In this document: positions 1,930 through 18,270 of the stretch, in pieces
Numbering within the stretch: the first letter of the stretch is position 1
Layout of the letters: each line of letters begins with the position of its first letter
Assembly (NCBI RefSeq): GCF_018308945.1
Contig: NZ_CP070501.1
Location: 2,604,001 to 2,668,000 of the forward strand
Direction of reading: 5' to 3'
From: Agrococcus sp. Marseille-Q4369
Lineage (GTDB): Bacteria; Actinomycetota; Actinomycetes; Actinomycetales; Microbacteriaceae
DNA length: 64,000 bases
The notes under the pieces: model-generated
What the model was told of the DNA's origin: nothing
Database searches by the model: none
What the model saw: only the letters and a program-made list of their open reading frames with translations
Translations under genes and position numbers: made by a program

Positions 1930-3933
1930 TCAGGCCTCGGCGGAGACCTTCGCGCGCGCCCGCTGCAGCGCGCCCGGGCGCGGCTCGATCTCGACCGCCG
2001 GGTCGTGCTGCGGATCGGCCGGGAGCAGCACGCCGTCGAAGAACTCGGCGAGCAGCTCGGGGCGCTCGAGCGGCAGCACGGCGGCGACGAACATGTCGGG
2101 CCGCACGACCACGACGCACCCGTCGCGGCTGACCCCGCGGCGCTCGAAGATGTCGTCCTCCGGATCGGCGGCGTAGACGAGCTCCTCGTCGCGCAGCTGG
2201 AAGGGGCCGAAGCGCGGCCGGAAGACGTCGTCGACGTCGTGCGGCTCGATCGCGTCGTGGTCCTGCTGCCACACGACCTTGACGTCGAAGACGCTGCCGG
2301 CGTCGTCGCCCTCGCGGCGCGTGCGCACGTACGGCGACTCGGGCGAGGTGCGCAGCCACTGCGCCCACCCCTCGATCGCGCCGCCCTGCCCGGGCGCCTC
2401 GCGGCCCGCGAAGGCGTAGAGCCGCCAGCGGCCGTCGGCCCGCATGTGGTGGCCGAGCTCCATCGGCACCGCGTCGCACACGCGCACGACCGGCGCCGAC
2501 CAGCAGCGCTTGCCGATCGGGAACCCGGTCGCGAGGTGCTGGTGCTCGCCCGCCTCGACGATCATCGAGGGCTCGTAGTGCGTGCCGAAGCCCGAGGCCT
2601 GCACCTCGCTCTTGAGGTAGTGCGCCGTGACCTCCTTGGGGTCGACGCCGCCGAGCTCGGGGTGCTCGGGGTCGAGCACCTTCGCGCCCATGAGCGTCGA
2701 CCACTCGCGGTCGAAGTCGATGAGCTTCTGCGCGACGTCCTGGCGCTCGACCGAGTACGTGTCGAGCAGCGACTCGGGGGACCGGCCGGTGAGCACCGAG
2801 CCGAGCTTCCAACCGAGGTTGAAGGCGTCCTGCATCGACACGTTCATGCCCTGACCGGCCTTCGCCGAGTGCGTGTGGCACGCGTCCCCGGCGATGAACA
2901 CGTGCGGCTCGACCGTGCCGCGCTCCTCGGGCTTCACGTCGTCGAAGGTGTCGGTGAGGCGCTGCCCGACCTCGTAGATGCTCCACCAGGCGACGTCGCG
3001 CACCTCGAGCCGGTACGGGTGGAAGATCGACTGCGCGATCTCGACGATGCGCTCGAGCGGCGTCTCGCGCACCTTGCCGTGGTCCTCGGGCGCGATGTCG
3101 CCCATGTCGACGTAGATGCGGCACAGCGCGTTGCCCTCGCGGGGGATGAGCAGGATGCTGCCCGCCTCCGACTGGATCGCGCACTTCGTGCGGATGTCGG
3201 GGAAGTCGGTGTCGACGAGCACGTCCATGACGCCCCAAGCGTGGTTGCGCGAGTCGCCGAGCAGCTGCCCGCCGATCGACTTGCGCACGACCGAGCGCGC
3301 CCCGTCGCAGCCGACCGCGTACTTCGCCCGCACGACGCGCTCAGCGCCGGCATCCGGGCCCGCCGTGCGGCGGAGGGTCGCCTTCACGGGATGCGTCTCG
3401 CCGCCCTCGACCTCGAGCCCGAGCAGCTCCCAGCCGAAGTCGGGGTTCATGCGGCTCGGCGAGTTGGCCATGTACTCGCAGAAGTAGTCCTGCACGCGCG
3501 CCTGGTTGCAGATGACGTGCGGGAACTCGCTGAGCGTCGAGCCCTCGACGCCCGCGGAGTCGGGGGTCGACTCCGCGCGGTAGATGCGCGAGCGGTCGGC
3601 AGGGTGGGGGCGCCAGAACTGCATCTCGGTGATGCGGTACGCCTCCTGCAGCAGCCGCTCGGCGAAGCCGAAGGCCTGGAAGGTCTCGATCGAGCGGGCC
3701 TGGAGGCCGTCGGCCTGGCCGAGCTCGAGGCGGCCATCGCGACGCTCGATGATGCGCGTGTGCACCTCGGGGTACATCGACAGCTGCGCGCCGAGCAGCA
3801 CGCCCGCCGGACCGGTGCCGACGATGAGCACGTCCATCTCGTCCGGGAGCTCCGCGGGCCGGTCGAGGCCGATGCCCGCGGCGGGGAGGATGCGCGGGTC
3901 GCCCTTGACGTAGCCGTGGTGATGGAACTGCAT
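1930..3933 (-). CDS. Class A FAD-dependent aromatic hydroxylase (phenol 2-monooxygenase / 3-hydroxybenzoate 4-monooxygenase type)
   Basis: 667 residues. An N-terminal FAD-binding motif VGTGPAG lies at residues 38-44, the second FAD/NADPH motif GCDGARS near 210, and the GDACHTHSAKAGQGMN FAD-ribityl motif near 350. About 200 C-terminal residues have the thioredoxin-like fold typical of phenol hydroxylase (dimerisation region). Such enzymes add a hydroxyl ortho to a phenolic OH using NAD(P)H and O2. As the last gene of a homoprotocatechuate operon that lacks hpaBC, it probably makes homoprotocatechuate from 4- or 3-hydroxyphenylacetate; this is inferred from context. The start ATG has AAGGAG at 3943-3948. 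Confidence 0.85.
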   Translation of the reverse strand: MQFHHHGYVKGDPRILPAAGIGLDRPAELPDEMDVLIVGTGPAGVLLGAQLSMYPEVHTRIIERRDGRLELGQADGLQARSIETFQAFGFAERLLQEAYRITEMQFWRPHPADRSRIYRAESTPDSAGVEGSTLSEFPHVICNQARVQDYFCEYMANSPSRMNPDFGWELLGLEVEGGETHPVKATLRRTAGPDAGAERVVRAKYAVGCDGARSVVRKSIGGQLLGDSRNHAWGVMDVLVDTDFPDIRTKCAIQSEAGSILLIPREGNALCRIYVDMGDIAPEDHGKVRETPLERIVEIAQSIFHPYRLEVRDVAWWSIYEVGQRLTDTFDDVKPEERGTVEPHVFIAGDACHTHSAKAGQGMNVSMQDAFNLGWKLGSVLTGRSPESLLDTYSVERQDVAQKLIDFDREWSTLMGAKVLDPEHPELGGVDPKEVTAHYLKSEVQASGFGTHYEPSMIVEAGEHQHLATGFPIGKRCWSAPVVRVCDAVPMELGHHMRADGRWRLYAFAGREAPGQGGAIEGWAQWLRTSPESPYVRTRREGDDAGSVFDVKVVWQQDHDAIEPHDVDDVFRPRFGPFQLRDEELVYAADPEDDIFERRGVSRDGCVVVVRPDMFVAAVLPLERPELLAEFFDGVLLPADPQHDPAVEIEPRPGALQRARAKVSAEA

Positions 3934-3955: not shown

Positions 3956-4765
3956 CTAGTAGCTGTCTGCCGCGGCGCGCGATTCGCGGATGCGGGCGAC
4001 GGCAGCCTCGGAGCCCCGCGCCATGAGCGTGACGTCGGCGGCGACGAACACGAACGCGGCGCCGCGCGCGAGCACGCGGTCCTGGTCGGCCTCCGCGAAG
4101 GCGTTGACGCCGACCGGCTTGCCCGCGCCGCGCACGGCGTCGATCGCCGCGTCGACCGCGGCGACGACCTCGGGCGCCCCCGGGGTGCCGGGGAAGCCCA
4201 TCGAGCCCGCGAGGTCGGCCGGGCCGATGAAGACGGCGTCCACGCCGTCGACGGCGGCGATCTCGGCGGCGTTCGCTACCGCGTCCGCCGTCTCGATCTG
4301 CACGGTCACCGACACGTGGCGGTCGGCGTCGCCGACGTAGCCGGTCGCCCGGCCCCAGCGCGCCGAGCGCGCGAGGGCCGAGCCGATGCCGCGCGTGCCG
4401 GGTCGCTCGCCCGCGGCGCCCGGGTAGCGCGCCGCGCGCACGGCGGCCTCGGCATCGGCGGCGGTCGACACCATCGGCACGACGATGTTCTGCGCGCCGA
4501 GGTCGAGCACCTGCTTGATGCGCACGGGGTCGTTCCAGGGGATGCGGACGATCGTCGTGACCGGGTAGGCCTCGGCCGCCTGCAGGATCTGCAGGATGTC
4601 GCGCAGCTCGATCGGCCCGTGCTCGCCGTCGACGAGCAGCAGGTCGGCGCCCGAGCCCGCCATGAGCTCGGCGGCGACGGGGCTCCCGGATGCGTTCCAC
4701 AGGCCCACGAGGGCACGGTCGGCACCCGCGAGCACGTCGCGCAGGGTCGGCTTGAGCGCCGTCAT
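3956..4765 (-). CDS. hpaI: 4-hydroxy-2-oxoheptanedioate aldolase (HpaI/HpcH family)
   Basis: 269 residues. It is a class II pyruvate aldolase that splits 4-hydroxy-2-oxoheptanedioate into pyruvate and succinate semialdehyde, the last ring-derived step of homoprotocatechuate breakdown. Visible family landmarks are LLVDGEHGP (catalytic His), QIETADAV (metal-ligand Glu) and VFIGPADLAGSMG (metal-ligand Asp). Length matches E. coli HpaI (about 262). Its ATG overlaps the hpaH stop (TCAT at 4762-4765). The longer open frame upstream is a shadow of hpaH. No succinate-semialdehyde dehydrogenase is seen in the operon. Confidence 0.92.
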   Translation of the reverse strand: MTALKPTLRDVLAGADRALVGLWNASGSPVAAELMAGSGADLLLVDGEHGPIELRDILQILQAAEAYPVTTIVRIPWNDPVRIKQVLDLGAQNIVVPMVSTAADAEAAVRAARYPGAAGERPGTRGIGSALARSARWGRATGYVGDADRHVSVTVQIETADAVANAAEIAAVDGVDAVFIGPADLAGSMGFPGTPGAPEVVAAVDAAIDAVRGAGKPVGVNAFAEADQDRVLARGAAFVFVAADVTLMARGSEAAVARIRESRAAADSY

Positions 4766-5598
4766 CGGAACGCCACCTCGACCATCCCCGCGTCCTGGAA
4801 CTCGACCCGCACGCGGTCGCCCGGGTGCACCCACACGGGGCGCGTGAACGAGCCGGCGAGGATGAGCTCGCCCGCCTCGAGCCGGTCGCCGTGCTGCGCG
4901 AGCTTGCCCGCGAGCCACGCGACGCCGTGGGCAGGGTGGCCGAGCACGCCGCCCGAGACCCCGGTCTCGATCACCTCGTCGTTGACGAAGCACTGCGCGC
5001 CGATCCAGGCGAGGTTGCGGTCGCGCGGACCGAGCTCGACATCGCCGACCACGACGGCGCCGAGCGCGGCGTTGTCGCTGATCGTGTCGACGATCGTGCG
5101 GCCCGCGAGCTCGATGTGCGAGTCGAGGATCTCGAGCGCCGGCACGACGACCTCGGTCGCGTCGAGCACCTCGTCGATCGAGAGGCCCTCGCCCTCGAGC
5201 GGCGAGCGCAGCACGAAGGCGAGCTCGACCTCGACCCGCACGTTCGACCACTGCGCGTGCTCGACCACGGCGCCCGAGCGGTAGGCCTGGTCGGCGAAGA
5301 TCACGCCGTAGTCCGGCTCGGTGATGCCCGTCGCATCCTGCATCGCCTTGCTCGTCAGCCCGATCTTGCGGCCCACGAGCCGGGCGCCGGCCTCCTCCCG
5401 GCGCGCGCGCCAGATGCGCTGCACCGCGTAGGAGTCCTCGATCGTCGCCTCGGGGTATCGGGTCGAGATCCGCTCGATGGTGCCGCGGCTGCGGGTGGCC
5501 TCGGCGAGCTCGTCGGCGATCGCCGTGACGGTCGCGTCGTCGAGGCCGCGCCCGCGCCCGGGTCCGGTGGACCCGGGCGGAACAAGACCAGGCGTCAC
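4762..5598 (-). CDS. hpaH: 2-oxo-hept-3-ene-1,7-dioate hydratase
   Basis: 278 residues in the FAH-fold 2-keto-4-pentenoate hydratase family (HpaH/MhpD). The conserved part begins at LDDATVTAIADELAEA (about residue 20) and includes GRKIGLTSKAMQDATGI, VEVELAFVL and NAALGAVVVGD. It adds water to the dienedioate formed by the FAH/RraA enzyme and gives the HpaI substrate. A GTG start at 5598 makes a GTGA overlap with the hpaD stop, giving an N-terminal extension of about 15 residues over E. coli HpaH. Its own stop overlaps the hpaI ATG, so hpaD-hpaH-hpaI are tightly coupled. Confidence 0.9.
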   Translation of the reverse strand: MTPGLVPPGSTGPGRGRGLDDATVTAIADELAEATRSRGTIERISTRYPEATIEDSYAVQRIWRARREEAGARLVGRKIGLTSKAMQDATGITEPDYGVIFADQAYRSGAVVEHAQWSNVRVEVELAFVLRSPLEGEGLSIDEVLDATEVVVPALEILDSHIELAGRTIVDTISDNAALGAVVVGDVELGPRDRNLAWIGAQCFVNDEVIETGVSGGVLGHPAHGVAWLAGKLAQHGDRLEAGELILAGSFTRPVWVHPGDRVRVEFQDAGMVEVAFR

Positions 5599-6689
5599 AG
5601 CTGGTTGCCGATCTTGAAGCCCTTCGCGGCCTCGCCCTTGTAGGTGCCCGAGTCGTCGCCCTCGCGGGTGTAGGAGAAGCCGTCGGCGCCGATCGTCACC
5701 TCCATCTCGCTCGAGTCGGTGCGCTCGACGATCTCTTGCGGCTTGCCGTCGAGGTCGAGCACCGGCGACGCCTCGGTGTACCAGGAGGGCACGACCGGGT
5801 TGCCCCACCAGTCGCGTCGCTGGTTGTCGTGCACGTCCCACGTGATGACGGGGTTGTCGGGGTCGCCGGTCCAGTAGTCCTGCGTGTAGATCTCGACGCG
5901 GTGGCCGTCGGGGTCGGTGATGTAGAGGTAGAACGCGTTCGAAACGCCGTGCCGGCCGGGGCCGCGCTCGATGTGGTCCGACATCCGCAGCGCGCCGAGC
6001 TTGTCGCAGATCTGGATGATGTTGTGCTTCTCGTGGGTCGAGAAGGCGATGTGGTGCATGCGCGGCCCGTTGCCGCCCGTGAGCGCGGTGTCGTGCACCG
6101 TGCCCTTGCGGTGCATCCACGCGGCGTAGGTGACGCCCTGGTCGTCCTGGATGTCCTCCGTGACGCGGAAGCCGAGATCCTCGAGGTACTTGCGGCCGCG
6201 CGGCACGTCGGGGGTGACCTGGTTGAAGTGGTCGAGGCGCACGAGCTCGCCCGCCGAGTAGAGGTCGTAGCGCTGGTGCAGCCGCTCGACGTGCTCGGTC
6301 GCGTAGAAGAACTCGTAGGGGAAGCCGAGCGGGTCCTCGACGCGCACGCTGTCGCCGAAGCCCCGCTGGAAGCCGTCCGCACGACGCTCGGTGCGGCATC
6401 CGAGCTCCCGGTAGTAGGCCTCGGCGCGGTCGACGTCCTCGGGGGTGCGCACGCGGTAGGCGAAGGCGGCGACGGCGGCGACCGGGCCCTTCCGCAGCAC
6501 GAGGTTGTGGTGGATGAACTCCTCGAACGACCGCAGGTAGATCGCCTCGTCATCCTCCTCGGTCACGTGCAGGCCGAGCACGTCGACGTAGAAGGCGCGG
6601 CTCGCGGCGAGGTCGGTGACGACGAGGTCCATCGCCGCGCAGCGGATGATGTCGGGCGCGGGGACGGAGGGCTTGGGGATCTCGTTCAT
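5595..6689 (-). CDS. hpaD: Homoprotocatechuate (3,4-dihydroxyphenylacetate) 2,3-dioxygenase
   Basis: 364 residues. It is an extradiol ring-cleaving dioxygenase of the vicinal oxygen chelate fold with two domains (about 15-135 and 150-290). The 2-His-1-Glu metal site is visible as His154 (RLDHFNQVT), His213 (MHHIAFS) and Glu266 (HRVEIYT). These correspond with an offset of one to His155/His214/Glu267 of the Brevibacterium fuscum Fe(II) enzyme and its Mn(II) relative in Arthrobacter, so this is the Gram-positive type, unrelated to the E. coli LigB-type HpaD. The metal cannot be told from sequence. ATG with AAGGAG upstream. Confidence 0.95.
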   Translation of the reverse strand: MNEIPKPSVPAPDIIRCAAMDLVVTDLAASRAFYVDVLGLHVTEEDDEAIYLRSFEEFIHHNLVLRKGPVAAVAAFAYRVRTPEDVDRAEAYYRELGCRTERRADGFQRGFGDSVRVEDPLGFPYEFFYATEHVERLHQRYDLYSAGELVRLDHFNQVTPDVPRGRKYLEDLGFRVTEDIQDDQGVTYAAWMHRKGTVHDTALTGGNGPRMHHIAFSTHEKHNIIQICDKLGALRMSDHIERGPGRHGVSNAFYLYITDPDGHRVEIYTQDYWTGDPDNPVITWDVHDNQRRDWWGNPVVPSWYTEASPVLDLDGKPQEIVERTDSSEMEVTIGADGFSYTREGDDSGTYKGEAAKGFKIGNQL

Positions 6690-6714: not shown

Positions 6715-8208
6715 TCAGGCGGATGCGCCGAAGCGGGTGGTGTGGACGTCGCCGAGCGTGATGTGCACGGCCTGCTGGTCGCTGTAGAAGTCGAGCGAGC
6801 GGTAGCCGCCCTCGTGGCCGAGGCCCGAGGCCTTGACGCCGCCGAAGGGGCTGCGGAGGTCGCGCACGTTGTGGCTGTTGAGCCACACCATGCCCGCCTC
6901 GACGTCCTGCGCGAACAGGTGGGCGCGCTTGAGGTCGTTCGTCCAGATGTAGGCGGCGAGGCCGTACTTCGTGTTGTTCGCGAGCTCGAGCGCCTCCTCG
7001 TCGGAGTCGAACGGGGTGATCGCGACGACCGGGCCGAAGATCTCCTCCTGGAAGATGCGCGCGTCGGGCGCGACGTCGGCGAAGACGGTCGGGGCGACGT
7101 AGTTGCCCTCGGGGAAGCCCTCGGGGCGGCCGCCGCCCGCGAGGAGGCGGCCCTCGCCCTTGCCGATCTCGACGTACGACATGACCTTGTCGAAGTGCTC
7201 GGGGTGCACGAGCGCGCCGACCTCGGTCTTCGGGTCGCCGGGGTCGCCCACGACGATGTTCCTCGCCCGCTCGGCGTAGCGCTCGACGAACTCGTCGTAG
7301 ACGCTGCGCTCGACGAGGATGCGGCTGCCGGCGGTGCAGCGCTCGCCGTTGAGCGAGAAGACGCCGAAGAGCGTCGAGTCGATCGCCGCGTCGAGGTCGG
7401 CGTCGGCGAAGACGACGGCGGGGCTCTTGCCGCCGAGCTCCATCGAGAGCGCCTTGAGGTGCGGGGCGGCGTTGCCGAAGATGAGCTTGCCGGTGCTCGA
7501 CTCGCCCGTGAACGAGATGAGCGGCACATCCGGGTGCTTCACGAGCGCGTCGCCCGCGGTCTCGCCGAAGCCGTTGACGAGGTTGAAGACGCCGCGCGGC
7601 AGCTCGGCCTCCTCGAAGATACCGGCCCACAGCGACGCCGAGAGCGGCGTGAACTCGGCGGGCTTGAGCACGACGGTGCAGCCGGAGGCGAGCGCGGGGC
7701 CGAGCTTCCACGACTCGAGCATGAAGGGGGTGTTCCACGGGGTGATGAGGCCCGCGACGCCCTTGGGCTTGCGGTTGACGTAGTTCACCTGCATTCCGGG
7801 CACCTTGTAGGTGTCGTCGCGGCCGGCGACGATGAGGTCGGCGAAGAAGCGGAAGTTCTCGGCGGCGCGCTGCGCCTGGCCCTTCGCCTGCGTGATCGGC
7901 AGGCCCGAGTCCCACGACTCGAGCTGCGCGAGCTCCTGGTCGCGCGACTCGACGATGTCGGCGATGCGGGAGAGGATGCGCGCGCGCTCGCGATTCTTCA
8001 TGCGCGGCCACGGGCCCTCGTGGAAGGCGCGGTTCGCGGCGGCGACGGCGAGGTCGATGTCGGCCTGCTTGCCGGAGGCGGCGACGGTGTAGTCCTCGTT
8101 CGTGACGGGGTTGAGCACGCCGAACGTGTCGCCGTCGACGGACGCGACGCGCTCGCCGTCGATGTAGTGGGGGATGAGCTCGGGGATGCCTGCGGGCTGG
8201 TCGGCCAT
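6715..8208 (-). CDS. hpaE: 5-carboxymethyl-2-hydroxymuconate-6-semialdehyde dehydrogenase
   Basis: 497 residues, aldehyde dehydrogenase superfamily. The nucleophile is the Cys in SLNGERCTAGSR, the general-base Glu is in MELGGKSPAVVF, and the NAD-site motifs ITPWNTPFML and FTGESSTGK are present. It oxidises the product of HpaD to 5-carboxymethyl-2-hydroxymuconate. The start chosen is the ATG at 8208 (MADQPAGIPELIP), which gives the usual length; the frame stays open further upstream but without similarity. It lies 59 bases after the GntR gene and 25 before hpaD. Confidence 0.92.
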   Translation of the reverse strand: MADQPAGIPELIPHYIDGERVASVDGDTFGVLNPVTNEDYTVAASGKQADIDLAVAAANRAFHEGPWPRMKNRERARILSRIADIVESRDQELAQLESWDSGLPITQAKGQAQRAAENFRFFADLIVAGRDDTYKVPGMQVNYVNRKPKGVAGLITPWNTPFMLESWKLGPALASGCTVVLKPAEFTPLSASLWAGIFEEAELPRGVFNLVNGFGETAGDALVKHPDVPLISFTGESSTGKLIFGNAAPHLKALSMELGGKSPAVVFADADLDAAIDSTLFGVFSLNGERCTAGSRILVERSVYDEFVERYAERARNIVVGDPGDPKTEVGALVHPEHFDKVMSYVEIGKGEGRLLAGGGRPEGFPEGNYVAPTVFADVAPDARIFQEEIFGPVVAITPFDSDEEALELANNTKYGLAAYIWTNDLKRAHLFAQDVEAGMVWLNSHNVRDLRSPFGGVKASGLGHEGGYRSLDFYSDQQAVHITLGDVHTTRFGASA

Positions 8209-8267
8209 GATGGCTCCTTGTCTGTTCGGTTCGTCGCCGCGGGTGGCGGCTCGGGGCTGTCGGCAGC

Positions 8268-8969
8268 TCAGGGCTTGGGCTGCGTGCGGTGCAGGTAGGC
8301 GTCGGGCGTCGCGAGGCGGTGGGCGCGCACGGCGAGCTCGATGCGGCGGGGGTCGGCGCCCTTCTCGATGAGCCCGAGGATCGCCTCGTGCTCGTCGATC
8401 GCCGGCCCGGCGCGGTTCGGCACGAACGAGAAGGTCGACTGACGGAGCCTCGCGAGGCGCTTCCAGCACGTGTCGATGACGTCGCCGAGCACCTGGTTGG
8501 CGCAGACGTCGGTGAGCCGCCGGTGGAAGGCCTCGTTGAGCGCGGTGAACCGCACGGGGTCGAAGTCGGCGAGCGACTGCCGCATCTCGTCGTTGATCGC
8601 CTGCGCCGCCGCGACGTCAGAGGCGGAGTAGAGGCCGGCGGCGAGCGAGATCGCGGCGCCCTCGACGTAGGAGAGCGTCTCCATCGTGTCGTGGTACTCG
8701 AGCTCGTCGATCTCGGCGACCCGCGCGCCGATGTTGCGCTCGAAGGTGACGAGCCCCTCCGCCTCGAGGCGGCGGATCGCCTCCCGCACCGGCACGACGC
8801 TCATGTCGAGCTCGCGGCCGATCGCGTCGAGCACGAGCCGGAAGCCGGGGGAGTAGGTGCCGTCGACGATGCGGTCGTGCAGCAGCCGGTAGGCGCGCTG
8901 CGACTTCGAGGGGGCGACGGTGCCGCCCGACTCGGCGGCGGCAGCGGTCCGCGAGCGCCGGCCGCTCAC
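8268..8969 (-). CDS. GntR-family regulator (FCD/FadR subgroup) of the hpa operon
   Basis: 233 residues. The N-terminal winged helix reads SQRAYRLLHDRIVDGTYSPG, then the recognition region DMSVVPVREAIRRLEAEGLV; the C-terminal all-helical FCD effector domain has the expected metal-ligand pattern, with His in NEAFHRRL and DEHEAI. GTG at 8969 overlaps the preceding stop (GTGA). As the second gene of the operon it should autoregulate. The palindrome ATCGTATACGAT at 10487-10498 and the related site at 10585-10596 are its likely operators; the inducer is probably an aromatic or ring-cleavage acid (inference). Confidence 0.88.
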   Translation of the reverse strand: MSGRRSRTAAAAESGGTVAPSKSQRAYRLLHDRIVDGTYSPGFRLVLDAIGRELDMSVVPVREAIRRLEAEGLVTFERNIGARVAEIDELEYHDTMETLSYVEGAAISLAAGLYSASDVAAAQAINDEMRQSLADFDPVRFTALNEAFHRRLTDVCANQVLGDVIDTCWKRLARLRQSTFSFVPNRAGPAIDEHEAILGLIEKGADPRRIELAVRAHRLATPDAYLHRTQPKP

Positions 8970-10480
8970 GACCCCTCCGTCTGGGCCGTCTCGGCCTCGT
9001 ACTTCGCGCGCCACTCGGCGTCCATGGGGAAGAGGCCGTCGACGGGGTGGCCGGCGTCGACCTGCGCGGCGATCCACTCCTCCTCCGCCTCCTGCTGCAG
9101 GCACTCGTCGACGAGCTCGCGCGCGAGCGCGGGCGGGATGACGAGCACGCCGTCGTTGTCGCCGACGATGATGTCGCCGGGCTGCACGGTGGCGCCGCCG
9201 CACGCGATCGTCTCGTCGAACGACCACGGCACGTGCAGGCGCCCGAGCACCGCCGGGTGGCCGCCGCCGTGGTACGTCGGCACGCCGATCTCGGTGACGA
9301 CGTCGAGGTCGCGCACGCCGCCGTCGGTGACGAGGCCCGCGGCGCCGAGGTGGCGCGCGCGGAGCGCGAGGATGTCGCCGAGCGTGCCCGAGCGGTTGTC
9401 GCCGCGGGCCTCGATCACGACGACCTCGCCGGGCTGCAGCGAGTCGAAGAGGCGCTTCTGCGCGTTGTAGCCGCCGCCGTGGCGCTTGAAGAGGTCCTCG
9501 CGGTTCGGCACGTAGCGGAGCGTGCGCGCGGTGCCGACCATGCGCTTGCGCGGCTGCGTCGAGCGCAGCCCGTCGATCGAGACGTTGTTGAGGCCGCGCT
9601 TCCGGAGCCCCGAGGAGAGGGTCGCGAGGGCGACGCGCGAGAGCTTGTCGCGCAGGTCGTCGTCGAGCACCGGCGCGGTCGGCTCCTGGAACTCGGCGAT
9701 CGGGCGGCCGGATGCGTCGGCCCACTGCTCGGGGGTCGGCTTCGGCTGGGCGGAGTACGCGGGCAGCCGCTGCTCGCCGACCCGCACCGTCGACGCGAGC
9801 CGCCCGGTCGAGAGCTGCTCGCCGTCGAGGGTCGTCGCCGTCACCTCGACCTCGACGCGCTGGCCGGGGGAGAAGGTGGAGGCGTTCGCGGGGGTGCCGG
9901 TGAGGATGACGTCCCCGGGCTCGAGCGTGATGAGCTGCGAGAGGTCGCTCACGATCTGCGGCAGCGAGAAGACGAGCGTCGAGGTCGAGTCCTCCTGCAC
10001 GAGCTCGCCGTCGAGCCACGTGCGCACCTCGATCGCGAGCGGGTCGATGCGCGTGGCGTCGAGGAGCGCCGGGCCGATCGGCGTCATGCCGTCACCGCCC
10101 TTCGAGCGGAGGTTGGAGCCCTTGTCGACCCAGCGGAGGTCGAAGACGCCGAGGTCGTTCGACGCCGTGACCGACGCGACGTGCGCCCACGCATCCGCCT
10201 CGTCCACCGCTCGCGCGTGCGAGCCGATGACGATCGCGATCTCGCCCTCGAAGCCGAAGATCTCGGTGCCGGCGGGCACGACGACCTCGCCGCCGGTCGA
10301 GAGCGACGTCGCGGGCTTCAGGAAGTAGCCGGGCGCCTCGGGCGTGCGGCCCTTCTGCGCGGCGCGGGCGCGGTAGCCGATGTGCATGGCGAAGACCTTG
10401 GCGGGCCGGGTGCCGAGCAGCTCCCACGCGGCTTCGGCGGGTGCGAGGGACTCGGTGGGGAGCTGCGACGATGCCTGCAT
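8966..10480 (-). CDS. Fused fumarylacetoacetate-hydrolase-fold enzyme and RraA-like domain (HpaG-type isomerase/decarboxylase)
   Basis: 504 residues. Residues ~30-260 form an FAH-fold domain with FEGEIAIVIG and FDLRWVDKGSNLRSKGGDG, close in pattern to E. coli HpaG. Residues ~285-500 form an RraA-type domain with the motif TDGGVRDLDV, a family that includes HMG/CHA aldolases and oxaloacetate decarboxylases. In E. coli, HpaG performs both decarboxylation of OPET and isomerisation using two FAH domains; here one FAH and one RraA domain probably share these steps, and no hpaF is present. First gene of the operon. The ATG at 10480 lies 6 bases after TACGAT, so the transcript is probably leaderless. 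Confidence 0.85.
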   Translation of the reverse strand: MQASSQLPTESLAPAEAAWELLGTRPAKVFAMHIGYRARAAQKGRTPEAPGYFLKPATSLSTGGEVVVPAGTEIFGFEGEIAIVIGSHARAVDEADAWAHVASVTASNDLGVFDLRWVDKGSNLRSKGGDGMTPIGPALLDATRIDPLAIEVRTWLDGELVQEDSTSTLVFSLPQIVSDLSQLITLEPGDVILTGTPANASTFSPGQRVEVEVTATTLDGEQLSTGRLASTVRVGEQRLPAYSAQPKPTPEQWADASGRPIAEFQEPTAPVLDDDLRDKLSRVALATLSSGLRKRGLNNVSIDGLRSTQPRKRMVGTARTLRYVPNREDLFKRHGGGYNAQKRLFDSLQPGEVVVIEARGDNRSGTLGDILALRARHLGAAGLVTDGGVRDLDVVTEIGVPTYHGGGHPAVLGRLHVPWSFDETIACGGATVQPGDIIVGDNDGVLVIPPALARELVDECLQQEAEEEWIAAQVDAGHPVDGLFPMDAEWRAKYEAETAQTEGS

Positions 10481-10486
10481 GGCGGC

Positions 10487-10498
10487 ATCGTATACGAT
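10487..10498. promoter_or_regulatory. Operator palindrome over the hpa operon -10 box
   Basis: ATCGTATACGAT is a perfect 12-base palindrome of the kind bound by GntR/FadR-subgroup proteins. Read on the minus strand it contains TACGAT, a TANNNT -10 box ending 6 bases before the ATG at 10480, with a possible -35 TTGCAG (rc of 10511-10516, spacer 18). Binding would block RNA polymerase directly. Confidence 0.7.
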
Positions 10499-10596: not shown

Positions 10597-10649
10597 CCAC
10601 TCAGTCCCGGCACCGATCTCGGCGCCCTTCCCCTGACAAAGGAGTCAGC

Positions 10650-12062
10650 GTGTCTCATAGCACGACGCCTCGGACCTCCGCGCGAGAGCGGAACAAGGTC
10701 CTGGCCGCAGTCGTCGTCGGCACCACCATCGAGTGGTACGACTTCTTCATCTACGCCTTCATGGCGAACCTCGTCTTCGCGCAGCTCTTCTTCGAGCCGG
10801 CGGGCCCCGGCCTCGGCCAGATCATCTCGCTCGTCACGATCGGCATCTCGTTCCTCTTCCGCCCGCTCGGCGCGTTCCTCGCGGGGCACTTCGGCGACCG
10901 GATCGGCCGCCGCCCGATGCTCGTGCTGACGCTCCTGCTCATGGGTGTCGCGACCACGCTCGTCGGCGCGCTGCCCACCTACGAGCAGGTCGGCATCCTC
11001 GCCCCGATCATGCTGATGTTCCTCCGCATCCTGCAGGGCCTCTCGGCCGGCGGGGAGTGGGGCGGCGCGGTGCTCATGGCCATCGAGCACGCGCCCGCCA
11101 ACCGCCGCGGCCTCTACGGCTCCTTCGTGCAGGCGGGCGTGCCGATCGGCATGCTGCTCGCGACCGGCATCCTCGCGGGCATCCGCGCGATGTTCCCGGG
11201 CGACGCGTTCCTCGAGGTCGGCTGGCGCATCCCGTTCTTCATCTCGATCATCCTCGTGGTCGTGGGCTACCTCGTGCGCCGCTCGGTCGACGAGTCGCCG
11301 GTGTTCCAGGAGATCAAGGAGACGGCGCAGGAGCAGTCGGCGCCCATCGTGCAGGTCTTCAAGAAGTACGGCCTCGTCGTGCTCTTCGCCGCGTTCGTCT
11401 TCATGGCGAACAACGCGACGGGCTACATGACCACCGGCGGCTACGTGCAGGGCCTGGCGTCGCGCCCGGTCGACGCGCCCGTGCCGGGTCTCGGCTTCGA
11501 CCCGGTCGGCGTGCAGCTCGCGACCTTCGCCGGCTCGCTCTCGTGGCTCGTGTTCACGTTCGTCGCGGGCTGGGCGTCGGACCGCATCGGCCGCAAGCCC
11601 CTGTACCTGATCGGCTGGGCGGCGCTCGCAGCGGGCATCGTGCCGCTCTTCCTGCTCGTCGAGACGGGTGTCGCGGGCGTGGCCTGGGCGACGATCCTGC
11701 TGGGCGTGGGCCTCGGCCTCACGTACGGCGCGCAGGCCGCGTGGTACGCCGAGTCCTTCCCCGCCTCGGTGCGCTTCTCGGGCGTCTCGATCGCCTACGC
11801 GATCGGTGCGGTGATCGGCGGCGCGTTCGCTCCGACGATCGCGCAGGCGCTGCTGCAGGCGACCGGTTCGACGTGGGCGATCGTCGGCTACCTGCTGGCG
11901 ACCGTCGTGATCTCGCTCATCGGCACGCTGCTGCTCAAGGACCGCACGGGCATCCCGCTCTCGATCGAGTTCGAGAAGTCGGGCAAGTGGGACGGATGGA
12001 AGAAGGGCGACGAGTTCGTCGCGCTCTCCGAGGTCGACCGCGAGGCGGCCGTCGACCGCTGA
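10650..12062 (+). CDS. MFS transporter, metabolite:H+ symporter (MHS) type
   Basis: 470 residues with 12 predicted membrane segments. Family signatures are GTTIEWYDFFIYAFMANLVF near the N-terminus, GHFGDRIGRRPML in loop 2-3, LQGLSAGGEWGGAVLMAIEH, and ASDRIGRKPLYLIG in loop 8-9. These match the MHS branch (ProP, KgtP, ShiA, aromatic-acid permeases). Divergent from the hpa operon and sharing its operator, so it most likely imports a hydroxyphenylacetate or related acid; substrate is inferred. GTG start at 10650 with AAAGGAG at 10638-10644. Annotating from upstream ATGs would run back through the promoter. Confidence 0.9.
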   Translation: MSHSTTPRTSARERNKVLAAVVVGTTIEWYDFFIYAFMANLVFAQLFFEPAGPGLGQIISLVTIGISFLFRPLGAFLAGHFGDRIGRRPMLVLTLLLMGVATTLVGALPTYEQVGILAPIMLMFLRILQGLSAGGEWGGAVLMAIEHAPANRRGLYGSFVQAGVPIGMLLATGILAGIRAMFPGDAFLEVGWRIPFFISIILVVVGYLVRRSVDESPVFQEIKETAQEQSAPIVQVFKKYGLVVLFAAFVFMANNATGYMTTGGYVQGLASRPVDAPVPGLGFDPVGVQLATFAGSLSWLVFTFVAGWASDRIGRKPLYLIGWAALAAGIVPLFLLVETGVAGVAWATILLGVGLGLTYGAQAAWYAESFPASVRFSGVSIAYAIGAVIGGAFAPTIAQALLQATGSTWAIVGYLLATVVISLIGTLLLKDRTGIPLSIEFEKSGKWDGWKKGDEFVALSEVDREAAVDR

Positions 12063-12077: not shown

Positions 12078-12104
12078 ACGGCCCCGCCCACGTGGCGGGG
12101 CCGT
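12078..12104. terminator. Hairpin between convergent genes
   Basis: Arms 12078-12088 (ACGGCCCCGCC) and 12094-12104 pair perfectly over 11 bases with a 5-base loop. It sits between the transporter stop and the convergent HtaA gene stop and may serve both strands. No T tract follows, as is common in high-GC actinobacteria. Confidence 0.65.
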
Positions 12105-12126
12105 TCGGCGTGCCGGGCAGGATCGG

Positions 12127-12543
12127 TCAGCGCTCGACGCGCGGGTCGTCGATCGGCGTGCCGGGCTCGTAGGGCCCGAAGAACAGGTCGGCGCCGTCCT
12201 GCGTGAGCGCGGTGCCGGAGGCCCGCTCGCCGTCGAACGCGGCGATCGTCGCGAAGGCGAGTCGTGCGCCCGGCTCGTGGGGGTCTGCGACCTCGAGCGT
12301 CCAGCCGCCCGGCGACTGGACGATCGCGGGCTCCGCGATGACGAGGCGCAGCATCCCGCCGTGCGCGGTGAGCGTCACGGAGCCGAGGAACGCGCCATCG
12401 GTGCCGGTCGTCCTCGATCCGGCGGGGAAGCGGAAGGCGTCGTGCTCAGCCGTCGCGCCGTCGGCGGCCTCGACCGAGCCCGCCCCGCGGCCGCGCACGT
12501 AGTCGAGCAGCGACGCCTTGATGCCCCAGACGAGCGCGGTCAC
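12127..12543 (-). CDS. Single HtaA-domain protein without signal peptide
   Basis: 138 residues that fit one HtaA domain end to end: LVWGIKASLLDYVRG at the start, then GSVEAADGAT, AFRFPAG, GSVTLTAHGGMLRLVIAEP and LAFATIAAFD. HtaA domains bind haem in corynebacterial surface proteins, usually as repeats behind a signal peptide and before a membrane anchor. Here there is neither, so the product should be cytoplasmic. The GTG at 12543 overlaps the LysR stop (GTGA), coupling it to that regulator, next to a haem-enzyme gene. The Tyr in LDYVRG is the expected haem-ligand position; haem binding here is inference. Confidence 0.7.
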   Translation of the reverse strand: MTALVWGIKASLLDYVRGRGAGSVEAADGATAEHDAFRFPAGSRTTGTDGAFLGSVTLTAHGGMLRLVIAEPAIVQSPGGWTLEVADPHEPGARLAFATIAAFDGERASGTALTQDGADLFFGPYEPGTPIDDPRVER

Positions 12544-13463
12544 CGCCGGCCCGGCCACGGGAGGGAGCGCGCGAACTCGATGAGCGCGCTCGTGCGGGCG
12601 GTCGGCTCGGGCGAGGCTGGCCAGATCACGTCGATGCCGACCGGCGGCACGCGCGGCGCGATCTCGAGCATGGCGACAGGGTAGCCCTCGTAGCTCGCGT
12701 AGTTCGCGGGACGCTGCACGAGGATCCCGTAGCCGAGGCCGCGGCCGACGAGCGCGCGCACGGCCTCCGAGCTCTGCACCCGGTGCCGCACGCGTGGCGT
12801 GACGCCCGCGGCCGCGAAGAGCGAGAGCGTGTGCTCGCTCGAGGGCGGCGCGTCGAGCAGGATGAGGTCGCGCTCGGCGAGCTCGGCGAGCCGCACCGAG
12901 CCGCGGCCGGCGAGCGGGTCGTCGCCCGCGACGACGACGTGCGCCGGGAGCGCGAAGAGCTTCGCGCGGCGCGGCTCGCCCGGCACGAGGGTGTCGTAGA
13001 CGAACGCGACGTCGATGCGGCCCGACTCGAGCCGGCCCTCGAGCCGGTCGTGCGTCGCCTCGACGATGTCGAGCTCGACCCGCGGATGCGCTCGGCCGAA
13101 GCCGGCGAGCAGGGGCGGGAGGATCGTCGGCGCGAGGGTCGGGTAGCAGCCGATCGTGACCGGCCCGACGAGCTCGCCAGGGGCTCCGCGCAGCGAGGTC
13201 TCGAGCTCGCGGGAGGTCGCGAGCAGCCCGCGGGCGCGAGCCACGACATCCGCCCCCGTGCTCGTGAGCGTCAGGCCGCGCGCCCGGCGGCGGACCGTGA
13301 GCTGCGAGCCCAGCTCGCGCTCGAGCTCGCTGATCGCCTCGGAGATCGCGGAGGGGGAGACGTGCAGGCGCGCTGCGGCGGCCGCGATCGTGCCCTCGTC
13401 GGCGGCGCACACGAGGTAGGAGAGCTGGCGCAGCGTGAACGCGGGCGCGTCGAGGGCATCCAT
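12540..13463 (-). CDS. LysR-family transcriptional regulator
   Basis: 307 residues. The N-terminal winged helix-turn-helix reads FTLRQLSYLVCAADEGTIAA then ARLHVSPSAISEAISELERE (about residues 10-55). The effector domain (residues 95-300) includes GPVTIGCYPTLAPTILPPLL. Divergent from the P450 fusion gene with a 98-base gap containing two inverted repeats, the classic arrangement for a LysR activator of its neighbour. ATG start at 13463. It is coupled to the HtaA gene downstream. Confidence 0.92.
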   Translation of the reverse strand: MDALDAPAFTLRQLSYLVCAADEGTIAAAAARLHVSPSAISEAISELERELGSQLTVRRRARGLTLTSTGADVVARARGLLATSRELETSLRGAPGELVGPVTIGCYPTLAPTILPPLLAGFGRAHPRVELDIVEATHDRLEGRLESGRIDVAFVYDTLVPGEPRRAKLFALPAHVVVAGDDPLAGRGSVRLAELAERDLILLDAPPSSEHTLSLFAAAGVTPRVRHRVQSSEAVRALVGRGLGYGILVQRPANYASYEGYPVAMLEIAPRVPPVGIDVIWPASPEPTARTSALIEFARSLPWPGRR

Positions 13464-13476
13464 GTTCGACTCCTCC

Positions 13477-13524
13477 GATGTAGAACGTCCGATACATCCG
13501 CTTTCGCCAACGTAGTCGTTGGCG
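13477..13524. promoter_or_regulatory. Two inverted repeats between LysR and the P450 fusion gene
   Basis: GATGTA (13477-13482) pairs with TACATC (13493-13498) across 10 bases, and CGCCAACG (13505-13512) pairs with CGTTGGCG (13517-13524) across 4 bases. The second can be lengthened outward by CATCCG/CGGATG at 13495-13500 and 13523-13528. Both fit LysR-type binding sites. Confidence 0.55.
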
Positions 13525-13561
13525 GATGATCGGGGGAGGACCGATCACGAGGATGTGCTCC

Positions 13562-16516
13562 ATGCCGACCGAAGCTCCCGTCGCTGACTGGGTGACGATC
13601 CCCGACCTGCACCGCGACCCGTTCCCGATCTACGAGCAGCTGCGCGCCGAGGGCGGCGTGCACTGGGTGCCCGCGGTCGGCCGCTACCTCATCACCTCCT
13701 ACGAGGCGGTGCACGAGACCGAGCTCGACCAGGAGGTGTTCTCGGCGAACGAGCAAGGCTCGCTGCAGATCCGCGCCATGGGCCACTCGATGCTGCGGCG
13801 CGACGACCCGGAGCACTACCTCGAGCGCAAGGCGTGGCAGCCGGCGCTGCGCCCCGGTGTCGTGCAGCGAGTGTGGCGCTCGAAGTTCGAGCGGAACGCC
13901 GAGCGCTACCTCGACGAGCTCATCGAGAAGGGGCCCGGCGCCGACCTCGTCTGGGACTTCGCCGCGCCGTACGCCGCCGAGAGCCTGCGCGAGATCATCG
14001 GCCTGCACAGCGCCGATCAGGAGGATCTGCAGCGCTGGTCGCAGACGATGATCGACGCGACCGGCAACTACGCCGATGACCCCGAGGTGTGGGCGAAGGG
14101 CCTGCGGTCGTTCGACGAGGTCGACGCCGCGCTCGACGACGTGCTGCCGTGGCACGCTGCGAACCCGAACGAGTCGCTGCTGTCGCAGCTCCTGCGCATC
14201 CCCGACTTCGAGATGCCCATCGAGCGCATCCGCGCGAACGTGAAGATGACGATCGGCGGCGGGCTCAACGAGCCGCGCGACGCGCTCGGCGTGGCTGCGT
14301 GGGCGCTGCTGACCCACCCCGAGCAGCGGCGCGCCGTCGAGGCCGACCCGTCGCTCTGGAACGCCGCGTTCGACGAGACGATCCGCTGGGTCGCGCCCAT
14401 CGGCCTCTACTCGCGTCAGGTCGCGCGCGACACCGAGCTCGCCGGCGTGCGGCTGCCGGCAGGAGCGCGCCTCGGCATCTGCATCCTCTCGGCGAACCGC
14501 GACGAGCGCGTGTGGCAGGACGCCGACCGCTTCGACGTGCGCCGCGAGGTCAAGCCGCACCTCGCCTTCGGCAAGGGCGTGCACGTGTGCCTCGGCGCAT
14601 GGGTCGCGCGCTCGGAGGTCGCCGACGTGGCGCTGCCGATGCTCTTCGAGCGCTTGCGCGGGCTCGACGTCGTACCCGACGCGCCGCCCGCCATCGCCGG
14701 CTGGGTATTCCGCGGCATGACGAGCCTGCCGGTGCGGTGGGACTCGGTCGCCGAGCCGGCGACGACCGCCGCGGCGCCCGTCGCCGCCTCGCAGGCCGCC
14801 CCGCGCATCGCGATCGTCGGCGCAGGCCCCGCGGGCTGCTTCACGGCGCAGGCGCTCCGCCGCCGCTTCCCGGCCGCCGAGCTCGAGGTGCTCGACGCGC
14901 TGCCCGTGCCGTACGGCCTCGTGCGCTCGGGCGTCGCCGCCGATCACCCCGGCACGAAGTCAGTCGCGCGGCAGTTCGACCGGCTCTTCCAGCACGACGG
15001 CGTGCGCTTCCGGGGCAGCGTGCGCGTCGGGGACGACGTGCCGCTCGACGCGGTGCGCGAGGCCTACGACGCGGTCGTGCTCGCGACCGGGCTGCGCGCC
15101 GATCGGCCGCTCGGCGTGCCGGGCGACTCGCTCGCGGGCATCCACGGCGCCGGCCGCATCACGCGCCTGCTCAACGCGCACGCCGACGAGGGCGACGCGC
15201 CCTCGCTCGGCGAGCGCGTCGTGGTCGTCGGCCTCGGCAACGTCGCGATGGACGTCGTGCGCATGCTCGCCCGCGACGCCGAGGGGCTCGGCGGCACCGA
15301 CGTCGACGACGAGGCGCACGAGCGGCTCGCTGCCGCCGTGCGCACGATCCACGTCGTGGGCCGCAGCGCCCCGAGCGACGCGCGCTTCGACCCCGTCATG
15401 GTGCGCGAGCTCGCGAGCCTGCCGGGCGTCGCCCATCGCGTGCACGGCGTCGCCCTCGACGGGATCGAGGCGGGCAAGGACGCGCGAGCGGATGCGGTGC
15501 GCGACCTGGTCGCGGAGCCCGCCGCGGCGCCGCGCGTCGAGGTGCACTGGTGGTTCGGGCTCTCGCCCGAGCGCATCGAGGGCGACGGCCGCGCCGAGCT
15601 GGCCGTCTTCCGCGGCGCCGACGGCGAGATCGCGCTCGAGGCGGACGCGATCGTCACGGCGGTCGGCTTCGCCGCGAGCGACGACTGCCTCGCCGAGCCC
15701 GGTGCGCACCCGAGCGGCCGGGTGGAGCCGGGCCTCTACACCGCGGGCTGGCTGCGGCGCGGTCCGCGCGGCACGATCCCGGACCAGCGCACCGACGCGC
15801 GCGAGCTCGCCCGCCTCGTCGCCGACGACCTCGAGGCGGGCGCGATCGCGATCGGGCGCGAGGGGCTGCCGCCGATCGAGGGGGAGACCGACTTCGAGGG
15901 CTGGCGGCGCATCGACGTGCGCGAGCAGCTCGGCGCCGCGCCGGGCCGCTCGCGCGCGAAGCTGCGCTCGCGCGCCGAGCTGCTCCAAGCGGCGCGAGAC
16001 GCGTCGATCCCGCTGCCGGCGGTCGCGACCGAGGAGAGCGCGTCGGAGGGCGCGGGGATCCCCGCGACGGTGCTGTTCGGCACCGAGTCGGGCGGGGCGG
16101 AGCTCGTCGCCGACGAGCTGCGGCGCGGGCTCGCTGGCCGTGCGGCCGTCGAGGTCGTCGACATCGCCGACGTCGCGCCAGGCGACCTCGACGCGAGCCG
16201 CCTGCACCTGCTCGTCTGCTCGACGTACGGCGACGGCGAGGTGCCGACGAGCGCCCGGGCGTTCCTCCGCGCGCTCGTCGAGGATCGGCCGGACCTGCGC
16301 GCGATGCGCTTCGCGGCCTTCGGGATGGGCGATCGCAGCTACACGAAGACCTACTCGCGCGGCAGCGAGCTCGTCGCCGAGGCGCTCGCGGCCTGTGGCG
16401 CCGAGCGGGTCGGGGAGTACGGGCGGCACGACGCCGGCGGGCCGGTGCCGGCGACCGAGGCCGCGCTCGAGTGGGCCGAGGGGGTGCTCGCCGAGGCGGC
16501 GGTGCCCGTCGGGTGA
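13562..16516 (+). CDS. Self-contained cytochrome P450: P450, adrenodoxin-reductase-like FAD domain and C-terminal flavodoxin in one chain
   Basis: 984 residues in three modules. P450 (1-395): ETIR at 272-275, haem loop FGKGVHVCLG at 336-345 with Cys343 as ligand, and an I helix reading GGGLNEPRD (232-240) without the usual acid-Thr pair. FAD/NADPH reductase of the adrenodoxin reductase/FprA type (about 414-770): GAGPAG at 420-425, NADPH motif VVVGLGNVAMD at 554-564 and GTIPDQRTDA at 737-746. Flavodoxin (834-984): FMN loop FGTESGGAELVA at 839-850, STYGDGEVP at 887-895 and GMGDRSYTKT at 921-930. All electron carriers from NADPH to haem are thus in one polypeptide. GAGG lies 9 bases before the ATG at 13562; an ATG at 13553 is possible. 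Substrate unknown. Confidence 0.9.
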   Translation: MPTEAPVADWVTIPDLHRDPFPIYEQLRAEGGVHWVPAVGRYLITSYEAVHETELDQEVFSANEQGSLQIRAMGHSMLRRDDPEHYLERKAWQPALRPGVVQRVWRSKFERNAERYLDELIEKGPGADLVWDFAAPYAAESLREIIGLHSADQEDLQRWSQTMIDATGNYADDPEVWAKGLRSFDEVDAALDDVLPWHAANPNESLLSQLLRIPDFEMPIERIRANVKMTIGGGLNEPRDALGVAAWALLTHPEQRRAVEADPSLWNAAFDETIRWVAPIGLYSRQVARDTELAGVRLPAGARLGICILSANRDERVWQDADRFDVRREVKPHLAFGKGVHVCLGAWVARSEVADVALPMLFERLRGLDVVPDAPPAIAGWVFRGMTSLPVRWDSVAEPATTAAAPVAASQAAPRIAIVGAGPAGCFTAQALRRRFPAAELEVLDALPVPYGLVRSGVAADHPGTKSVARQFDRLFQHDGVRFRGSVRVGDDVPLDAVREAYDAVVLATGLRADRPLGVPGDSLAGIHGAGRITRLLNAHADEGDAPSLGERVVVVGLGNVAMDVVRMLARDAEGLGGTDVDDEAHERLAAAVRTIHVVGRSAPSDARFDPVMVRELASLPGVAHRVHGVALDGIEAGKDARADAVRDLVAEPAAAPRVEVHWWFGLSPERIEGDGRAELAVFRGADGEIALEADAIVTAVGFAASDDCLAEPGAHPSGRVEPGLYTAGWLRRGPRGTIPDQRTDARELARLVADDLEAGAIAIGREGLPPIEGETDFEGWRRIDVREQLGAAPGRSRAKLRSRAELLQAARDASIPLPAVATEESASEGAGIPATVLFGTESGGAELVADELRRGLAGRAAVEVVDIADVAPGDLDASRLHLLVCSTYGDGEVPTSARAFLRALVEDRPDLRAMRFAAFGMGDRSYTKTYSRGSELVAEALAACGAERVGEYGRHDAGGPVPATEAALEWAEGVLAEAAVPVG

Positions 16517-16524
16517 ACCTGCGA

Positions 16525-16544
16525 GCCGGGCCGTCGGGTCCGGC
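16525..16544. terminator. Hairpin between the P450 fusion gene and convergent RimK-like gene
   Basis: GCCGGGCC (16525-16532) and GGTCCGGC (16537-16544) pair at seven of eight positions plus one G-T pair, with a 4-base loop. It lies in the 31-base gap between two convergent stops and can act in both directions. Confidence 0.5.
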
Positions 16545-16547
16545 GCC

Positions 16548-17744: not shown

Positions 17745-17781
17745 GCGAGGTCGACCTGCCTTCCTGCTTGGATGGGGGCCT

Positions 17782-18270
17782 ATGGGCGACGACCATCCTC
17801 GCAGGCCTGCGATCGCCGGCTGGCGCGAATGGGTCGGCCTGCCGCATCTCGGCGTGCCGCACGTGAAGGCCAAGCTCGACACGGGCGCGCGCACGAGCGC
17901 GCTGCACGCGTTCGACATCGTCGAGACGACGCGGGACGGTGCCGACTGGGTGTGCTTCTCGGTGCACCCGTGGCAGCGCTCGGACGACGACGCGGTCGTC
18001 GTCGAGGTGCCGGTGCACGACCGCCGGCTCGTGCGCTCGTCGACGGGCCACGAGCAGGAGCGCATCGTCGTCCGCACGGCGCTCGAGCTGCTCGGCCGCG
18101 AGGTGCTCACCGAGGTGACGCTCGCGCGCCGCGACGAGATGGGCTTCCGGCTGCTCGTCGGGCGCGAGGCGCTCCGGCAGGGCTTCGCCGTCGACTCGGC
18201 GCGCTCGTACCTCGGCGGGCGGCCCACGCGCGACGTGCGGCTCAAGAACCGGGGGCGCGCCGGTGCGTGA
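17782..18270 (+). CDS. RimB-like retropepsin-type protease (PF05618 family)
   Basis: 162 residues. The active-site-like motif KLDTGARTSALHA is the hallmark of the family once called ATP-dependent zinc proteases and now seen as pepsin-like aspartic proteases such as Pseudomonas RimB. In that system RimB works against RimK glutamylation. The ATG at 17782 is preferred because the upstream ATG at 17731 would overlap the divergent RimK start and lacks family similarity; GGATGGGGG precedes 17782. Overlaps the next gene by 8 bases. Confidence 0.82.
   Translation: MGDDHPRRPAIAGWREWVGLPHLGVPHVKAKLDTGARTSALHAFDIVETTRDGADWVCFSVHPWQRSDDDAVVVEVPVHDRRLVRSSTGHEQERIVVRTALELLGREVLTEVTLARRDEMGFRLLVGREALRQGFAVDSARSYLGGRPTRDVRLKNRGRAGA

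Follow-up and report, generated by a model that had tools for sequence, protein, structure and literature searches.

A cytochrome P450 with an adrenodoxin-reductase-type module and a flavodoxin in one chain: a predicted self-sufficient P450 of Agrococcus and other actinobacteria

Self-sufficient cytochromes P450 need no partner proteins and are therefore useful catalysts, and the natural ones fall into few layouts in reviews, as far as the accessible parts of these extend. P450 BM3 of the CYP102 type (class VIII) carries an N-terminal P450 and binds flavin adenine dinucleotide (FAD) and flavin mononucleotide (FMN) in the same chain, its reductase domains being ordered FMN and then FAD. In XplA/XplB (class VI) a flavodoxin is fused to the N-terminal end of the P450, with a separate protein as reductase. 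The BM3 reductase belongs to the cytochrome P450 reductase (CPR) family (PMC9687028), while CYP116B (class VII) and P450chc are self-contained single-chain P450s which use 2Fe-2S domains (PMC11173547, PMC9687028). The P450cin system (class III type) consists of three separate proteins, among which cindoxin is the FMN partner of the P450 and cindoxin reductase resembles ferredoxin reductases dependent on NADPH (reduced nicotinamide adenine dinucleotide phosphate), and the Arthrobacter cluster of CYP1232A24 has two P450s with a separate flavodoxin and flavodoxin reductase (PMC9687028). Here we analyse a 64,000-nucleotide stretch of the Agrococcus sp. Marseille-Q4369 genome (contig NZ_CP070501.1, positions 2,604,001 to 2,668,000), called the window below, in which one forward-strand gene (13562..16516, +; 984 amino acids in a single frame with one terminal stop) encodes a P450, an adrenodoxin-reductase (AdR)-type module and a flavodoxin in this order. 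The architecture is real and conserved. The genome is a single contig of 2.74 Mb, and among loci from named genomes the nearest are those of Agrococcus.

The sequence-only reading had described one 984-residue frame with a P450 (haem ligand Cys343), an AdR/FprA-type module and a C-terminal flavodoxin, and Pfam and phmmer searches against the PDB agree on this layout. The Pfam search returned p450 (PF00067, residues 266-354), Pyr_redox_2 (PF07992, residues 415-712) and Flavodoxin_1 (PF00258, residues 837-968, E 1e-21) in the proposed order, all above the curated cut-offs. The CYP1232-like P450 domain, delimited by its match to 6g71_A, occupies 13571..14749 (+, residues 4-396) and is followed by an Ala/Pro-rich linker (14750..14797, +, residues 397-412), the AdR/FprA-type FAD module with matches to PF07992, 1cjc and FprA (14798..16036, +, residues 413-825), a second, short linker of approximate boundary (16037..16060, +, residues ~826-833) and the flavodoxin domain with matches to PF00258 and cindoxin 4oxx (16061..16513, +, residues 834-984). 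A second in-frame ATG upstream at 13526 would give 996 residues; we place the start at ATG 13562 because the alignment of relatives begins at about residue 1 to 5 and a GAGGA that is likely, from its sequence, to be the ribosome binding site lies 8 bases upstream (13549..13553, +).

Set against the described systems, the fusion differs from BM3 in having an AdR-type FAD module before the flavodoxin, and this FAD part matches PF07992, 1cjc and FprA, not an FNR-type reductase, no FNR-type family being among the four Pfam matches of the chain. It differs from CYP116B and P450chc in that no 2Fe-2S ferredoxin domain was found in the chain, ferredoxin families being absent from the four Pfam matches and from the best 25 of the 37 NCBIfam matches. 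With XplA/XplB it shares the AdR-type reductase and the flavodoxin, but its flavodoxin is C-terminal and the AdR lies in the same chain. With the P450cin system it shares a likeness to cindoxin, its best flavodoxin match, and the predicted order FAD to FMN to haem, the fusion being a single frame rather than three proteins. CYP1232A24, which we take to be the protein of PDB entry 6g71, is 61% identical to the P450 domain, has the same I-helix letters and is its sister in our tree; here again the fusion is one chain. On the Rhodococcus pyridinivorans plasmid pA an operon encodes P450, AdR and flavodoxin, ordered as here and nearly abutting, but as three genes instead of one and with roughly 35% identity across the full query. 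Among the P450 classes of PMC11173547 and the further layouts of PMC9687028, in the accessible parts of both, P450-AdR-flavodoxin does not occur, and no description of it was found in the literature searched (titles and abstract openings, with few subscription journals). The earlier suggestion that no described class has this domain order thus stands within that literature, and as far as searched the layout is undescribed. For GcoAB, the layout of the partners was the reason for publishing it as a new class of P450 (PMC6021390).

The fusion recurs widely. Within the genus it is present in one frame in 16 of 24 genomes (15 full-length matches and G006, where the match is split and the frame is single), and in a 17th, G023, it is spread over two frames. 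Scanning titled genomes yielded 72 loci, 42 of which have all three domains in one frame; these come from 12 genera and at least three families, namely Agrococcus, Leucobacter, Microbacterium, Brevibacterium, Gulosibacter, Citricoccus, Pseudoglutamicibacter, Enteractinococcus, Subtercola, Yaniella, Labedella and Zimmermannella. The remaining 30 loci comprise 23 unfused P450s, four copies of the fusion that are truncated or broken (L044, L054, L082 and L088) and three that are either a distant P450 or fragments at contig ends. The proposed search for proteins with all three domains in the stated order returned, over all loci, 75 frames, always P450-AdR-flavodoxin, which correspond to 56 distinct sequences since the same genomes were sampled more than once. 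In broader samples, 10 of 299 genomes of the family have one full-length match and G297 in addition has a split match in a single frame, 10 of 396 genomes of the order match at an E limit of 1e-60, and 9 of 346 genomes of the phylum match at E 1e-70, the window over its full length and the remaining eight over the P450 portion. A search with 6g71 at E 1e-100 gave matches in 70 of 395 genomes from the Micrococcaceae-type family to which G409 belongs, and the best 16 of these 70 have frames of more than 1000 amino acids with P450 and AdR, in DNA that ends before or within the flavodoxin.

Outside chromosomes, 1346 plasmid records matched, 10 of them with at least 80% query cover at one place, and none of the 10 holds a single chain. 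For a phage or virus origin, a scan of viral contigs with short peptide patterns returned no relative and PHROGs gave one weak partial match. The three-gene operon of the same order on the Rhodococcus plasmid would lend some weight to an assembly or frame error that joins separate genes, and the sequence-only reading had itself named a sequencing error of this kind as the danger; recurrence of the single frame in 42 loci, in 75 frames overall and in 16 of the 24 genomes of the genus refutes such a join and rules out an assembly artefact, so that its probability is vanishingly small. Among the 42, L040 is interrupted by a stop within its flavodoxin. It belongs with L054, L082, L088 and L017 to a set of fusion copies carrying a stop, frame break or internal deletion, which may be due to sequencing error or decay.

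Conservation extends to the residues expected of each module. In the 42 aligned fusions the haem-ligand Cys343 (14588..14590, +) is invariant together with Glu272 and Arg275 of the ExxR motif, as expected of a cytochrome P450, and so are Gly420, Gly422 and Gly425 of the FAD-binding GxGxxG motif. The pyridine-nucleotide motif of AdR/FprA reductases, GxGNxA, is present as GLGNVA (15230..15247, +, residues 557-562) with G557, G559, N560, V561 and A562 invariant, and in the flavodoxin the FMN-loop residues Glu842-Ser843-Gly844 and Gly921/923-Asp924 are likewise invariant. The gap between P450 and AdR ranges from 7 to 40 residues across the 42 fusions. Ratios of nonsynonymous to synonymous substitution rates (dN/dS; pairwise Nei-Gojobori, own script) in comparisons with five relatives were 0.10-0.28 for the P450, 0.27-0.49 for the AdR module and 0.10-0.39 for the flavodoxin, which indicates that purifying selection acts on each of the three domains. 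The ratios were 0.26-0.92 in linker 1 and 0.18-1.28 in linker 2 (residues 823-833), each measured over only 11-16 codons.

The modules have different closest relatives. The P450 domain is 61% identical to 6g71 over 391 residues (phmmer E 6e-166 over residues 4-396), and the aromatic O-demethylase GcoA is among its next PDB matches. We take 6g71 to be CYP1232A24, a methoxyphenylacetate O-demethylase from Arthrobacter, which Klenk et al. reportedly described in 2019 as making dihydroxyphenylacetate from dimethoxyphenylacetate. Since assignment to a CYP subfamily requires 55% identity or more to one of its named members, the fusion P450 falls within CYP1232A, provided that 6g71 is indeed CYP1232A24. 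The AdR module matches adrenodoxin reductase 1cjc from residue 411 (E 3e-46 to 5e-45) and FprA 1lqt over residues 416-758 (E 4e-45 to 5e-43), and it is 43% identical to XplB compared with 33% to FprA of the same genome. The flavodoxin has cindoxin 4oxx as its best PDB match (E 6e-25) and is 44% identical to the flavodoxin domain of XplA. The genes compared are XplB and XplA after PMC10820124 (425 of 425 and 552 of 552 residues) and after PDB 2wiv. The sequence-only reading had pictured the protein as XplA and XplB combined in one chain. This holds for the reductase and the flavodoxin and fails for the P450, which is 25% identical to that of XplA, so that an XplA-like P450 is ruled out. Other unfused AdR-flavodoxin pairs are equally close, a Nitratireductor pair being 45% identical. 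A recent derivation of the AdR module from the FprA of the genome is unsupported, given the 33% identity and a distant branch in the AdR tree.

All 23 unfused P450s of the titled-genome scan, whose hosts include Arthrobacter, Paeniglutamicibacter and Saccharopolyspora, have genes for two partners within 1.5 kb downstream, one a 2Fe-2S ferredoxin and the other a flavoprotein of the putidaredoxin-reductase type. In none of the 42 fused loci was a ferredoxin or ferredoxin-reductase gene detected anywhere in the locus DNA examined, at limits of more than 30 bits for the ferredoxin and more than 100 bits for the reductase and with the whole locus searched; this is as expected if the fused module took the place of separate partners. 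A divergent LysR gene lies upstream in 34 of the 42 fused loci and in 24 of the 25 rows scored unfused with enough upstream DNA. The contrast between fused and unfused loci suggests that the electron supply of the P450 has been exchanged, and thus the redox partners seem to have been swapped and not merely joined. A P450 tree was built from 6g71, 33 unfused rows and 43 fused ones, the latter being the 42 loci plus the window; several of its long branches were flagged. In it the 43 fused rows stand on one side of a branch with a Shimodaira-Hasegawa-like approximate likelihood ratio test support of 85 (unstarred), and 6g71 is sister to them with a support of 98 (starred). A single origin of the fused P450s is favoured by this tree, although not proven; like the AdR tree, it is a quick tree with no bootstrap.

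That the fused AdR-flavodoxin mainly serves other P450s, or that the P450 still needs a separate ferredoxin, would be in keeping with the existence of AdR-flavodoxin pairs as separate units elsewhere and with the genome having an FprA of its own. We judge this quite improbable in view of the partner-gene counts, even though these cover local DNA and a distant ferredoxin gene is possible, and of the one fixed domain order in 75 frames. An internal start before the AdR module could be placed at an in-frame GTG within the last P450 residues in many fusions, while 7 of the 42 lack any in-frame start codon (ATG, GTG or TTG) over the stretch examined.

The AdR tree (43 fused and 24 unfused rows, leaving out L137-L152 and the truncated or broken copies L017, L044, L054, L082 and L088) groups the fused modules with the unfused AdRs of L106 and L108 (support 96, starred), and therefore the fusion may have split once afterwards or may have formed a second time. 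AdR-flavodoxin gene pairs are also found without this P450, as in the three-gene operon of Rhodococcus pyridinivorans. At L106 and L108 (genomes G205 and G133; wider stretches L170 and L171) an adjacent flavodoxin gene gives the order flavodoxin-AdR, and no CYP1232-like P450 was found in the 7 kb around the AdR genes; these two loci possibly represent a split of the fusion. A 1001-residue frame with the order AdR-flavodoxin-P450 and a different P450 lies on contig C14 of G098 (L173:781-3783, -) and is evidently an independent three-way fusion. It is full-length in one of four genomes of its genus and in one of 398 genomes of the family sample, and seven other genomes of that family match its P450 and its AdR at separate places. 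Enterobacter and Klebsiella plasmids (L133, L191-L194) carry an AdR-flavodoxin-P450 gene set, followed in the four annotated records by a gene of the major facilitator superfamily (MFS). Taken together, it is likely that P450-AdR-flavodoxin constitutes a separate natural class of self-sufficient P450s found in at least three actinobacterial families, in which a CYP1232 P450 swapped ferredoxin and putidaredoxin-reductase-type partners for an AdR-flavodoxin of XplB/XplA type. AdR-flavodoxin would then be a third plug-in P450 reductase beside the CPR and phthalate-dioxygenase-reductase types, joined to P450s repeatedly and in differing orders, as the AdR-flavodoxin-P450 frame of G098 illustrates.

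Judged from its domain anatomy, the protein is very likely catalytically self-sufficient. In the mechanism that we propose, NAD(P)H, that is, NADPH or reduced nicotinamide adenine dinucleotide (NADH), would reduce the FAD of the AdR-type module, which would hand single electrons to the FMN of the C-terminal flavodoxin; the flavodoxin, swinging on its linker, would then reduce the haem of the N-terminal CYP1232-type P450, where O2 would be activated. Homovanillate or 3,4-dimethoxyphenylacetate would be O-demethylated to 3,4-dihydroxyphenylacetate, to be cleaved and degraded by the products of the adjoining HpaD-E-(FAH/RraA)-H-I cluster (FAH, fumarylacetoacetate hydrolase). We assign a probability of roughly 0.6 to this reading of the enzyme as a self-sufficient O-demethylase of methoxylated phenylacetates, the reaction being proposed because of the adjoining Hpa cluster and the kinship with 6g71. 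The coenzyme may be either NADPH or NADH. In AdR/FprA reductases a pair of arginines binds the 2'-phosphate of NADPH. The fusion has Arg601-Ser602 (15362..15367, +; invariant in the 42 fusions) and reads GRS where 1cjc and FprA of the genome, with Arg-Arg, read GRR. XplB likewise has Arg-Ser, and assays of XplB with NADH are cited by a review (PMC8081977).

The genes next to the fusion form, by family searches, a predicted homoprotocatechuate meta-cleavage cluster. HpaD, the extradiol 3,4-dihydroxyphenylacetate 2,3-dioxygenase (5598..6638, -; TIGR02295 437 bits, cut-off 321.4), and HpaE, the 5-carboxymethyl-2-hydroxymuconate semialdehyde dehydrogenase (6715..8226, -; TIGR02299 654.4 bits, cut-off 638.35), both score above their cut-offs, and so does a double protein (8966..10489, -; PRK12764 723.5 bits, cut-off 444) with a putative HpaG-like role. 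PRK12764 is a known family in which fumarylacetoacetate-hydrolase and RraA-type domains occur in one protein. An HpaH-like hydratase (4765..5583, -; 290.5 bits) and an HpaI-like aldolase (3956..4738, -; 256.7 bits) stay below their cut-offs of 351.5 and 368.8. A LysR-family regulator (12540..13463, -) is divergent from the fusion gene and would control it, and a ShiA-like MFS metabolite/H+ symporter (10647..12062, +; TIGR00883 361.8 bits, below the cut-off of 443) is a candidate importer of the aromatic acid.

Several observations weigh against the proposed demethylase and its history. The I helix (segment around GGGLNEPRD, 14252..14284, +, residues ~231-241) lacks the usual Asp/Glu-Thr pair, and PMC8081977 ties such an absence to reductive XplA. 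Together with a redox module akin to XplB/XplA, this could indicate a reductive P450 that passes its electrons mainly to the substrate instead of activating O2. Such an activity is very improbable here given the low identity to XplA, an I helix with the same letters in 6g71, which we presume to be an O2-using demethylase, and the adjoining extradiol dioxygenase gene; G232-G234 and N236-D240 of this helix are invariant in the 42 fusions. A literature text search for 6G71, whose identity and activity are presumed here, gave nothing relevant. Of the fused loci, 12 have both HpaD and HpaE nearby (nine from Agrococcus, two from Microbacterium and one from Subtercola), whereas 30 lack the pair within up to 10 kb per side, or less at contig ends, and in L086 HpaE lies at the edge of the DNA examined; a strong link to the pathway is therefore confined to Agrococcus, part of Microbacterium and Subtercola. 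An HpaB-like hydroxylase elsewhere in the genome (G000 contig C1 92424-92981, 109 bits) provides a second possible source of dihydroxyphenylacetate. As for the exchange of partners, among 23 further unfused P450s above 300 bits (from further genomes, with some duplicates) both partner genes were found in 20 and were missing or partial in three: L122 has just the ferredoxin, while L110 and L129 have no partner gene. A second P450 in L058 (304 bits) also lacks both. Scores of 304-496 bits were obtained for these exceptions, while every unfused row above 500 bits has both genes, the broken fusion L054 aside. The P450s of L110 and L129 and the second one of L058 are more distant unfused relatives, with no ferredoxin or reductase genes just downstream.

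With the same self-sufficient electron path, the enzyme might instead hydroxylate a phenylacetate, or some different aromatic acid, on the ring or the side chain, since the neighbouring genes fix the likely product pool and not the reaction and most fused loci lack the HpaD and HpaE pair in the DNA examined. We consider hydroxylation possible yet somewhat unlikely, because the P450 is so close to the presumed O-demethylase 6g71, shares its GGGLNEPRD segment letter for letter and has GcoA among its next matches. O-demethylation, if this is the reaction, would probably make the enzyme one that demethylates aromatic acids of the lignin type; aromatic demethylation is often a key bottleneck (PMC6021390). 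The layout itself, if it is what it appears to be, adds to the natural self-sufficient P450s one built on a different reductase fold. It would also make an exchange of redox partners traceable, with related P450s that share a divergent LysR gene of one type upstream and draw on two different electron supplies, and the cost and gain of fusion would therefore be directly measurable.

HpaD and HpaE are also found near the unfused P450 of Saccharopolyspora indica (L071, ~9674-20400), a CYP1232-like enzyme with its own ferredoxin and reductase that stands beside HpaD, HpaE and an FAD hydroxylase, an arrangement that perhaps represents an older state in the same pathway. For the LysR operator, no palindrome was common to the 70 upstream stretches beyond close relatives among the top two listed for each stretch, and a CCAAC-N6-GTTGG-type repeat seen by eye in the window recurs in none of them. 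The cluster beside the fusion gene further contains a GntR-family regulator (8268..8963, -; searched as 8289-8963, with GntR-type matches below cut-offs) and a phenol-2-monooxygenase-type FAD hydroxylase (1930..3933, -; PRK08294 942 bits, cut-off 560; PF01494 and PF07976). On the other side of the fusion gene, 16653-18267 holds a RimK-type ATP-grasp protein with a TrkA_C domain and a divergent protein of the Zn_protease family (PF05618).

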